In this document: one piece after another, positions 34,012 to 35,687 of the stretch
Layout: each line of letters opens with the position of its first letter
How positions within the stretch are numbered: the stretch's first letter is position 1
Source of the DNA: Giesbergeria sp.
Lineage (GTDB): Bacteria; Pseudomonadota; Gammaproteobacteria; Burkholderiales; Burkholderiaceae_C
DNA length: 52,342 bases
Assembly: GCA_023150295.1 (NCBI GenBank)
Contig: JAKLLE010000020.1
Location: 1-52,342 of the forward strand
Reading direction: 5' to 3'
Translations under genes and position numbers: made by a program
The notes under the pieces: generated by a model
Database searches by the model: none
What the model saw: the letters and a program-made list of their open reading frames with translations, nothing else
Told to the model about the DNA's origin: nothing

Positions 34012-34617
34012 ATGATGCCCGCCCATTCTGCGCCCATGAATCTGACACACCATTTCCTCATTGCCATGCCCGGACTGGAGGATGTGTCTTTTGCAGGCAG
34101 CGTGGTGTACCTGTGCGAACACAGCGAACGCGGCGCGTTGGGGCTGATCATCAACAAACCCACCGACATCAAGCTCCAGGGCTTGTTCGAGAAAGTCGAT
34201 CTTCCGCTGGGGCGGCCAGACCTGAGCGATGCGCCGGTGTTTCTGGGCGGGCCGGTGCAGACCGAGCGCGGCTTTGTGCTGCACGAACCCATGCAGGCCC
34301 AGGGCGAACAGGGCGAGGAATCTGCCTATGCCTCGACCATGGTCATACCGGGCGGCGGGCTGGAGATGACCACCTCCAAGGACGTATTGGAAGCCCTGGC
34401 CACGGGCGCAGGCCCCCGGCGTGTACTGGTCACGCTGGGCTATTCGGCCTGGGGCGAGGGTCAGCTGGAATCCGAACTGGCCGAGAACACCTGGTTGACC
34501 GTGGGCGCCGACCTGGGGGTGATTTTTGACACCCCCATCGACAAGCGCTACGACAGCGCACTCGGCTTGCTGGGCCTGCAGGCGTGGCAACTTTCTCCAG
34601 GGGCGGGACACGCATGA
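34012..34617 (+). CDS. YqgE/AlgH family protein
   Basis: A 201-residue DUF179 protein with the family's NLTHHFLIAMPGL start, GLIINKP, FLGGPVQ and GYSAWGEGQLE motifs. The function is not firmly established. It is next to ruvX in most proteobacteria, which is the case here apart from two inserted mini-ORFs. Start choice is uncertain between 34012, 34015 and 34036; none has a good Shine-Dalgarno. Its stop TGA overlaps the ATG of the first mini-ORF. Confidence 0.92.
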   Translation: MMPAHSAPMNLTHHFLIAMPGLEDVSFAGSVVYLCEHSERGALGLIINKPTDIKLQGLFEKVDLPLGRPDLSDAPVFLGGPVQTERGFVLHEPMQAQGEQGEESAYASTMVIPGGGLEMTTSKDVLEALATGAGPRRVLVTLGYSAWGEGQLESELAENTWLTVGADLGVIFDTPIDKRYDSALGLLGLQAWQLSPGAGHA

Positions 34618-34682
34618 GCGCGCGCCGGGCCGCTCCCAAGCAAGCTCGCACCGCAGTGCGCAGCACGGAGGTTTTCCAATGA
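34614..34682 (+). CDS. Mini-ORF 1 of the R3 cassette (22 codons)
   Basis: ATG overlaps the yqgE stop as ATGA, and the TGA stop overlaps the ATG of mini-ORF 2. The predicted basic peptide starts MSARRAAPKQAR and ends TEVFQ. Translation is supported only by the overlaps and by repetition in the second copy. It may be translated for coupling rather than for the peptide itself. Confidence 0.5.
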   Translation: MSARRAAPKQARTAVRSTEVFQ

Positions 34683-34743
34683 GCGCGCGCCGGGCCGCTC
34701 CCAAGCAAGCGCGCACCGCAGTGCGCAGCACGGAGGTTCCACA
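34614..34743 (+). repeat. R3: 65-bp unit, two tandem copies
   Basis: 34614-34678 and 34679-34743 are exact-length tandem copies differing at one internal base (T at 34646, G at 34711) and in the last few bases. Each starts ATGAGCGCGCGCCGGGC, contains a small hairpin (CGCAC CGCA GTGCG) and ends in GGAGG plus 7 nt, directly followed by the next start codon. A third TGAGCGC begins ruvX. Confidence 0.95.
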
Positions 34744-34747
34744 GTGA
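34679..34747 (+). CDS. Mini-ORF 2 of the R3 cassette (22 codons)
   Basis: The near-identical second copy starts MSARRAAPKQAR and ends TEVPQ. GGAGG at 34667-34671 is 7 nt before its ATG. Its TGA overlaps the GTG of ruvX, and its own GGAGG (34732-34736) is the Shine-Dalgarno of ruvX. It is either a relay in a coupled chain or a fossil of a repeat insertion. Confidence 0.5.
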   Translation: MSARRAAPKQARTAVRSTEVPQ

Positions 34748-35169
34748 GCGCACCGGCCCCGTCCGCCTCCGCTGCCGTTCCCGCGCATTTCCAGACCTTT
34801 CTCGCTTTCGATTTTGGGCTGCGCCGCACCGGCGTGGCCTTTGGTACGCGCATGCTGGGCACGGCCTCGCCCCGGCCCACCATCCAGGCCGAGGGCGACG
34901 CGCGCTTTGCCCCGGTGGCGCGGGCCATTGCCGAGTGGCAACCCGATGCCCTGGTGGTGGGCGTGCCCTACCACCCCGACGGCGCGAGCCACGACAACAC
35001 CCGCCGCGCGCAGCGCTTTGCGCGCCAGTTGCGCGGGCGTTTTGGTTTGCCGGTGTATGAGGTGGACGAGCGCTACAGCACCACCGAGGCACTGGCCGCC
35101 AACGCGCGCGATGCCGATGCTGCATCGGCTTGCATCATTCTCGAACAATTTTTGAGGAGTCTTTCATGA
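34744..35169 (+). CDS. ruvX: RuvX/YqgF Holliday-junction resolvase family
   Basis: A 141-residue RNase H-fold protein (FLAFDFGLRRTGVAFG, VVGVPYHPDG, DERYSTTEA) implicated in pre-16S rRNA 5' processing and, in some reports, Holliday-junction cleavage. The GTG start is set by GGAGG 7 nt upstream within the R3 unit. The N-terminus has a 15-residue Ala/Pro/Ser extension. Its stop overlaps the pyrR ATG. Confidence 0.93.
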   Translation: MSAPAPSASAAVPAHFQTFLAFDFGLRRTGVAFGTRMLGTASPRPTIQAEGDARFAPVARAIAEWQPDALVVGVPYHPDGASHDNTRRAQRFARQLRGRFGLPVYEVDERYSTTEALAANARDADAASACIILEQFLRSLS

Positions 35170-35687
35170 CTACAGCTTCTTCGGGCGCGCAGGGCAGCCT
35201 GGTGCTCGACGCCGAGGCCCTGTACCGCGAACTGCTGCGCGGCGTGCGCAGCCTGCGCGAGCCGCACACGCGCCTGGCGGGTATTGCCTCCGGCGGTGCC
35301 TGGCTGGCGCAGCGCCTGCAGCAGGACCTGGGTCTGGAGGGTGCGCCGGGCGTGCTCTCTTCGGCCATGCACCGCGACGATTTTGCCCAGCGCGGCCTGG
35401 CGTCGAGTGCACACACCGCGCTGCCCTTCGATGTGAACGGCGCCGACATCCTGGTGCTGGACGATGTGCTCTACACCGGCCGCACCGTGCGCGCCGTGCT
35501 CAACGAGCTGTACGACTACGGTCGCCCCGCGCGCGTGCGCCTGGCCGTGTTGGTGGACCGCGGCGGGCGTGAGCTGCCCGTGCAACCCGACTTTGCCGCC
35601 GCGCGCGTCACGCTGCCCGCGAGCCAGTCGCTGGCGCTGGCGCGCAACGACGGCGGCAGCTTTGTGTTCCAGGTCAAGGAGGCGTGA
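35166..35687 (+). CDS. pyrR: PyrR-type uracil phosphoribosyltransferase/regulator
   Basis: A 173-residue PRTase-fold protein with the PRPP motif [16 protein letters not shown] and [18 protein letters not shown], as in PyrR. In Gram-positives PyrR attenuates pyr operons by binding RNA; in proteobacteria with the pyrR-pyrB-pyrC' order its regulatory role is less clear. ATG overlaps the ruvX stop, with GAGGAG upstream. The stop overlaps the GTG of pyrB. Confidence 0.92.

Follow-up and report, generated by a model that had tools for sequence, protein, structure and literature searches.

Termination-reinitiation at ATGA overlaps couples the translation of adjacent genes, and an insertion between genes coupled in this way is usually regarded as polar. 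What, then, are the two short repeats that lie between yqgE and ruvX in the window (the whole 52,342-nt stretch of Giesbergeria DNA analyzed here), and how could such a gene pair accommodate them? A first-pass annotation had suggested that they belong to a small repeat able to insert where genes are coupled while leaving the coupling intact. Placement, reading frame, and empty sites in relatives support this proposal for most copies. We favor, with a probability of roughly 0.6, a reading in which a small mobile repeat has adapted to stop/start junctions, would be translated as a relay, and would supply the Shine-Dalgarno sequence (SD).

Two tandem units join yqgE to ruvX

The tandem 65-bp cassette annotated between yqgE and ruvX consists of two head-to-tail units (Table 1) that are 94% identical to each other; its TRF score is 243, versus 51 to 52 for the window's four other tandems. 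We propose the name relay element for the dispersed repeat that both units represent. Each unit holds, as annotated, a mini-ORF of 22 codons plus stop and a GGAGG 7 nt ahead of the next start. The three successive stop/start relays are also present, but the overlaps measure 4 nt (ATGA, ATGA, and GTGA) and not the single base first claimed. Pfam matches identify window genes as AlgH-like (YqgE), RuvX, and a phosphoribosyltransferase (PyrR-like). The ruvX-pyrR junction (35166-35169) and that between pyrR and the next gene (35684-35687), which we take to be pyrB, are ATGA and GTGA overlaps too; thus, the run from yqgE onward looks coupled.

Table 1. Features of the yqgE-ruvX junction in the window and further loci of the same genome that hold the unit
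Feature	Position	Strand	Basis or remark
yqgE (AlgH-like, PF02622), upstream coupled gene	34036..34617	+	TGA 34615-34617 within ATGA 34614-34617
Relay element unit 1, 65 bp	34614..34678	+	Tandem detection and homologues
Mini-ORF 1, 22 codons (MSARRAAPKQARTAVRSTEVFQ)	34614..34682	+	Start overlaps yqgE stop; stop overlaps unit 2 start
Hairpin 1, unit 1: GAGC 34616-34619 / GCTC 34644-34647 around conserved GCCGGGCCGCTCCCAAG loop	34616..34647	+	By eye
Hairpin 2, unit 1: GTGC-GCA-GCAC, immediately 5' of SD	34656..34666	+	Covariation
SD GGAGG for unit 2, 7-nt spacer	34667..34671	+	Sequence, spacing statistics
Relay element unit 2, 65 bp	34679..34743	+	Tandem detection
Mini-ORF 2, 22 codons (MSARRAAPKQARTAVRSTEVPQ)	34679..34747	+	TGA 34745-34747 overlaps ruvX GTG
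Hairpin 2, unit 2: GTGC-GCA-GCAC	34721..34731	+	Sequence, covariation
SD GGAGG for ruvX	34732..34736	+	7 nt before ruvX start
ruvX (PF03652), downstream coupled gene, GTG start	34744..35169	+	Pfam; empty site in relatives
Own-genome locus: two lipid A acyltransferase-type genes	Two units between	Sense strand	
Own-genome locus: DUF4139 gene / pgpA	One unit between	Sense strand	
Own-genome locus: DUF934 gene / cysH	One unit between	Sense strand	

Copies in the genome, the family, and beyond

Three further loci of the same genome hold the unit (Table 1), all at stop/start overlaps, which places the yqgE-ruvX feature beyond chance. At all four loci, the unit begins at the terminal ATGA of the upstream gene and ends just before the downstream start codon. 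A local tandem duplication and nothing else is ruled out by these loci and by the copies in other genomes.

A search of 26 genomes of the genus gave matches in 14, full-length in 11; G009, G013, and G023 match over 30 to 43 nt only and were left out of the genus carrier count. In the GTDB family, with two places scored per genome, matches were obtained in about 215 of the 399 genomes and in 93 of the 141 genera, the genome figure being rough since some weak matches are to a related ~84-bp repeat. With a different unit as the query, 6 of 200 sampled genomes of the order matched, three from the same family over at least 60 nt and three from other families over 28 to 30 nt. Carriers among the matches listed include Variovorax, Xenophilus, Acidovorax, Hydrogenophaga, Rhodoferax, Curvibacter, Aquabacterium, Rubrivivax, Ramlibacter, Methylibium, Pelomonas, Albitalea, Simplicispira (e.g., L246 from Simplicispira hankyongi), Pseudorhodoferax, one Paraburkholderia, and others. 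Copies in Acidovorax, which the first-pass annotation had mentioned, are among them (L178, L201, L211, L229, and L282). Five plasmid records carry the relay element, and the phage records searched do not. One draft genome (2017_B01_C_4) has tandem arrays of five (L205) and four (L199) units, in which one 66-nt unit stands amid 65-nt ones.

Variants were also observed. In one genus (G055; L073 to L087), units have a different second hairpin followed by GAAGGGTGCACCA or a similar stretch ahead of the start; some of them end instead in a long palindromic tail (GCCCGGACATGGGATGCCC...). The conserved loop GCGCCGGGCCGCTCCC(A/T)AGC also occurs in hairpins of another kind (GGGCCG...CGGCCC), which begin elsewhere than at an NTGA (L088 to L092 and L111), pointing to a putative larger repeat superfamily.

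Placement at stop/start junctions

Placement was read from a scan with the pattern GCTCGCACCGCAGTGCGNAGCACGGAGG, which covers hairpin 2 and GGAGG and demands nothing further to the left or right. It returned at least 119 stretches with at least 137 copies. Among the matches listed, 116 of 137 copies have [AG]TGA at +12 from the first G of GGAGG, and any other single position from +6 to +21 has it in at most 3 copies. The 21 exceptions comprise 7 copies with another start codon at +12 and 14 with none, the latter including starts shifted by one or two bases as well as cases with no start nearby. Copies that ignore reading frame and junctions had been named beforehand as counter-evidence to a junction-seeking repeat; these 21 listed copies break the start rule, and the other 116 follow it.

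At the left end, setting aside 11 copies near a locus end and 11 inner tandem units leaves 115 leftmost units among the 137 listed copies. The upstream stop, in the upstream frame best by GC3, overlaps the unit start exactly in 84 of these 115; in 5 it lies at most 20 nt before the unit start, and 26 were classed as "other." At least five of the 26 are overlaps whose unit start was mis-chosen by the script (L177, one in L191, L223, L224, and L277), and in some (e.g., L189 and L264) the upstream frame reads through the unit to the next start. Genes were called here by open length and GC3 and not by a gene finder; both neighbors were called for 77 of the 110 listed single copies, and 64 of these 77 have a mini-ORF whose stop overlaps the start that follows. 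NTGA on the left with SD and start on the right is found in 100 of 125 listed relay copies (12 of the 137 lie too near a locus end). A rough CDS classifier put 23 of these 125 "in CDS, same strand," placements that we ascribe to open frames running through the unit. The search across Comamonadaceae genomes that the first-pass annotation had called for thus finds most copies at NTGA junctions, with the frame kept and with relatives that have empty sites.

Among the plasmid records, the annotation of two has the upstream CDS ending at unit position 4 and the downstream CDS beginning at position 66, with no gene call for the mini-ORF. One plasmid copy (L427, L428) is off-junction, since the annotated upstream neighbors of the following gene are on the other strand, and a fifth record has no annotation at the relay element. 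In L427 (2004-2100), GGAGGTTGCCTTATGAGCGCC stands on both sides of the unit, with a gene for an IS110 transposase upstream.

Unit length and reading frame

A set of 174 distinct units, collected by a script that limited length to 51 to 70 nt and required the spacing and any start codon, comprised 108 units of 65 nt, 40 of 62 nt, 15 of 66 nt, 5 of 63 nt, 3 of 59 nt, and 1 each of 58, 64, and 56 nt, the 58 being a parsing artifact. Within the 77 listed single copies with both genes called, 44 units measure 65 nt and 21 measure 62 nt; only two are long (78 and 83 nt), one of them measured from an earlier unit. L073 holds a variant unit of 77 nt.

Dropping units with homologous neighbors reduced 159 units to 112 junctions. 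This set was selected on spacing and a right [AG]TGA, and what is evidential in it is the left end, the length (51 to 70 nt), and the A/G ratio. Over these 112 non-homologous junctions, length modulo 3 is 2 in 101, 0 in 10, and 1 in 1, a distribution whose raw significance is inflated by inheritance of a few length types. A remainder of 2 sets the mini-ORF stop within the overlap, and a remainder of 0 sets the mini-ORF in frame with the next gene, which 10 of the 112 units could extend. The frame rule fits translation, since the nearly missing class is the one that would be read out of frame into the next gene. Depending on the unit type, the mini-ORF reads hairpin 2 and the SD in any of three frames (e.g., ...TAVRSTEV.., ...HRSAQHGG.., and ...PKRAARR..). 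The relay frame is kept and the peptide sequence is not, which suggests that the mini-ORF counts as a path for translation and not for its product.

Hairpin covariation

Hairpin 1 starts inside the start codon (A-U-GAGC...GCUC) and has a conserved loop and a variable stem; hairpin 2, with variants GTGC-GCA-GCAC, GCGC/GCGC, and GCCC/GGGC, adjoins the SD. Pairing reached 94.6% versus 90.1% upon shuffling for hairpin 1 in one 65-nt class (21 distinct forms), 93.5% versus 84.6% for hairpin 1 in the 62-nt class (22 forms), and 92.4% versus 82.3% for hairpin 2 (23 distinct forms). None of 5,000 shuffles attained any of the three observed values, in a comparison that ignores relatedness and uses helices first drawn by eye on the same sequences. 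Four slid controls for hairpin 2 gave 8 to 53% pairing. The hairpin 1 test covered unit types other than that of the window, in which the outer stem of hairpin 1 comprises 4 bp, one of them mismatched in unit 2 (3' arm GCGC). RNA folding of single window units did no better than shuffles; the case for structure comes from covariation among copies. Either RNA or single-stranded DNA may be the form in which the structure acts. Rfam covariance models, run on the window stretch and 17 loci, gave one sub-threshold microRNA match each and nothing more. Sequestration of the SD by a loop CUCC was considered and dropped on paper because CCCC forms lack it.

Filled and empty sites

Removal of both units was predicted to leave yqgE overlapping ruvX directly, which is what relatives display: 22 orthologous loci from 21 genomes have a direct ATGA overlap at this junction, and 2 loci (G000 and G006) have two units. 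The closest empty locus (L133) has the same site, apart from a few substitutions at the end of yqgE and in the start of ruvX, which is ATG there and GTG in the window. Genome G011 encodes a RuvX 100% identical to that of the window and has an empty yqgE-ruvX site with an ATG start of ruvX; exact loss there is thus as possible as gain in G000/G006.

Empty sites were found at four junctions in all, with weaker protein matches dropped from the ortholog counts. The 15 orthologues of an ABC permease junction (at least 87% identity) divide into 4 with the unit, 8 with the direct overlap, and 3 with another insert. The unit is present at DUF934-cysH in 4 of 9 orthologues (at least 88% identity) and at the acyltransferase pair in 3 of 25. 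The other insert at the permease junction (L291, L296, and L297) is a different C/G-rich stretch of ~150 bp at the same ATGA, ~150 bp before the permease start. This junction may be a hot spot.

Element ends, target, and mover

At the left end, 106 of the 112 non-homologous junctions have ATGA and 6 have GTGA; the 113 coupled junctions of the same loci that lack the element comprise 65 ATGA, 37 GTGA, and 11 TTGA (P = 1e-8). The right start, with 78 ATGA and 34 GTGA, is like this baseline (P = 0.39). Given a near-constant left end and a baseline-like right start, the element most likely brings the left ATGA with it, and the right start is most likely native; from this we infer the exact boundaries of the unit. 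A C precedes the left ATGA in 83 of 112 junctions versus 51 of 113 element-free ones (P = 1e-5; position -1 was one of ten examined), which suggests a target preference for C before ATGA. The 7 nt preceding the start showed no sign of duplication (1.50 observed versus 1.45 shuffled matches). TGA at both ends of the relay element is compatible with a 3-nt duplication; MITE-type inverted ends were checked by eye only.

A Y1/RAYT transposase was considered as the mover and set aside, as it does not track with the element in nine genomes. Y1_Tnp is absent from G011, which has five full-length relay loci, and present in five genomes without a match. The surroundings of Y1_Tnp at 8 of 17 places contain no unit, and a loose 9-nt motif matched there only twice. 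The mover may still come from another Y1 family or a distant one.

Relation to known repeats

REPs are short dispersed hairpin repeats thought to be moved in trans by RAYTs (IS200/IS605-like Y1 transposases); they are extragenic and follow no SD or frame rule. The relay element shares with them the short hairpin repeats and the many dispersed copies. It differs in that its units start with ATGA and end at about CCA without a GTAG/CGTC end tag (by eye), and in the lack of a linked Y1 transposase in the genomes and places examined.

The first hairpin of the relay element recurs in the ~84-bp repeat, which, itself or as a similar stretch, occurs in 130 of 150 genomes of the family, often in tandem at about 84 bp. 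None of its 41 copies in fetched loci has NTGA on the left with SD and start on the right; 12 lie within a frame on their own strand, 5 within one on the opposite strand, and 24 outside such frames. Copies inside open coding frames were seen in L016 (1497-1590; a frame that looks like purK and that we presume to be so), L043, L379, and L380.

According to the available part of its description, BRE is a small G+C-rich repeat of Betaproteobacteria, including Comamonadaceae, with units of about 90 bp (75 to 91) and tandem copies separated by no or few nucleotides (Hot et al. 2011, PMC3110155). Some copies reach a few bases into the end of an ORF, convergent genes flank 4 of 13 Bordetella loci, some copies lie inside coding sequences, and one Bordetella locus adjoins lexA; in that text, mobility is suspected and the function is left open (PMC3110155). 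The relay element is likewise a small repeat with tandem copies without spacer (2 units in the window, 5 in L205, and 4 in L199), but its units, mostly 65 or 62 nt, fall outside the 75- to 91-bp range given there. BRE, so far as described in the available text, lies in intergenic regions of any orientation and inside coding sequences, whereas the relay element lies at junctions (the 100 of 125 listed copies); that text describes no SD, relay ORF, or junction rule, and the relay element has all three (PMC3110155). In length, tandem habit, and places, the ~84-bp repeat fits the part of the BRE description at hand, a likeness of description and not of sequence. The relay element is best seen as a putative junction-adapted relative within a wider BRE-like repeat family. 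We used LT.RQ, SMxxxGI, and VA[AS]GxP as presumed markers of LexA; near the ~84-bp repeat (30 loci, four genomes), LT.RQ and SMxxxGI were absent and three VA[AS]GxP strings were unconvincing.

Rickettsia palindromic elements (RPE), as portrayed in the available parts of the sources, measure 105 to 146 bp and occur as in-frame fusions in genes and also between genes (PMC2229807, PMC10969869). Small palindromic repeats with an open frame and a translation-compatible insertion, they are the nearest in manner to the relay element; unlike it, they are described in those parts as inserting in frame within protein genes, whereas the relay element sits between coupled genes and ends in a stop/start overlap. 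A full-text literature search, with subscription papers largely beyond reach, found no description of an SD-bearing junction repeat, and a word search of the available text of a paper on small repeats (PMC3733652) found none of the genera asked for.

Mechanism and alternatives

In the mechanism that we propose, a unit, usually of 65 or 62 nt, would bring its own ATGA, hairpin 1, hairpin 2, GGAGG or GAAGG, and a spacer mostly of 7 nt, and would insert immediately upstream of the start codon that opens the second gene in an NTGA-overlapping pair, this start staying native. Its left ATGA would replace the stop of the upstream gene and open a frame of ~22 codons, which would cross both hairpins and end in a TGA overlapping the downstream start, now with a well-spaced SD. 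Ribosomes that finish the upstream gene would begin again at the overlapping AUG, open the hairpins as they synthesize the 22-residue peptide, and terminate at the UGA overlapping the next start, where the SD would also permit new loading. Since ribosomes would restart and be handed on, the insertion need not uncouple the gene pair and may be neutral for expression. Movement would be driven by an enzyme acting in trans. Junction type and relay mode are those of termination-reinitiation; here, the coupling parts sit on an inserted repeat. We would give even odds to a fuller version of this reading: a mobile element that has its niche in the 4-nt stop/start overlap between coupled genes, prefers operon junctions of the form C-[AG]TGA, carries stop-plus-start, relay frame, and SD, and has spread over more than 100 unrelated operons of Comamonadaceae and near relatives with coupling kept.

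Among 20 downstream genes scanned out of 82 distinct candidates, 17 had a Pfam match and 8 of the 20 were ABC transporter parts; other types were FliG, SDR, PhoD, EamA, HlyD, FtsW, TctC, Mrp antiporter, and DctM, to which RuvX, PgpA, CysH, and LpxL add further kinds. No plain regulon emerged from these 20. This variety, read without a background rate, argues for a tolerated mobile repeat rather than a regulon. It also bears on a reading that we hold unlikely, though worth weighing, in which the relay element is a selected cis-regulatory module whose hairpins and relay ORF tune the ratio of downstream to upstream translation, kept because it is helpful and spread by ordinary recombination between genomes. 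The ABC transporter share, again without a background rate for coupled genes, would suit such a module, as would the conservation of frame and hairpins, an SD-to-start spacing that is fixed while the spacer sequence partly varies, and the copies of one junction, intact in four species at 79 to 93% identity to the window unit. The many kinds of the remaining downstream genes speak against it, as do the differing presence of units in close relatives and the -1 C bias, which suggests an insertion preference.

Indiscriminate insertion, with survival only where both genes stay preserved, would make the junction rule a matter of pure selection. Disruptive copies would indeed be lost, and the related ~84-bp repeat does occur in and between genes. 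On this account, however, neutral intergenic copies should abound: of the 539 [AG]TGA tetranucleotides on both strands of the window, 62 fall outside gene calls, versus 2 NTGA overlaps found by a simple gene caller that missed ruvX-pyrR. Just 14 of the 137 listed copies lack a start at +12, and neither the -1 C bias nor the near-constant left ATGA is expected, so we consider this explanation improbable. Selection for the 22-residue peptide as the conserved product, a small protein family, is most improbable, for although the C-terminal half TAVRSTEV recurs in the commonest 65- and 62-nt units, 66-nt units read HRSAQHGG from the same hairpin and continue into the gene that follows, PKRAARR or a similar string is read in another 62-nt type, internal compensating indels alter the N-terminal half, and conservation follows the hairpins.

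If the reading of a mobile repeat adapted to stop/start junctions is true, translation through operons can shape a mobile element, as in the frame modulo 3, SD spacing, and overlaps at 112 junctions. Its filled and empty sites would then offer a large natural collection of matched junctions at which termination-reinitiation could be measured. In annotations of Comamonadaceae, the small ORFs and start codons called at junctions of this type would merit re-examination.
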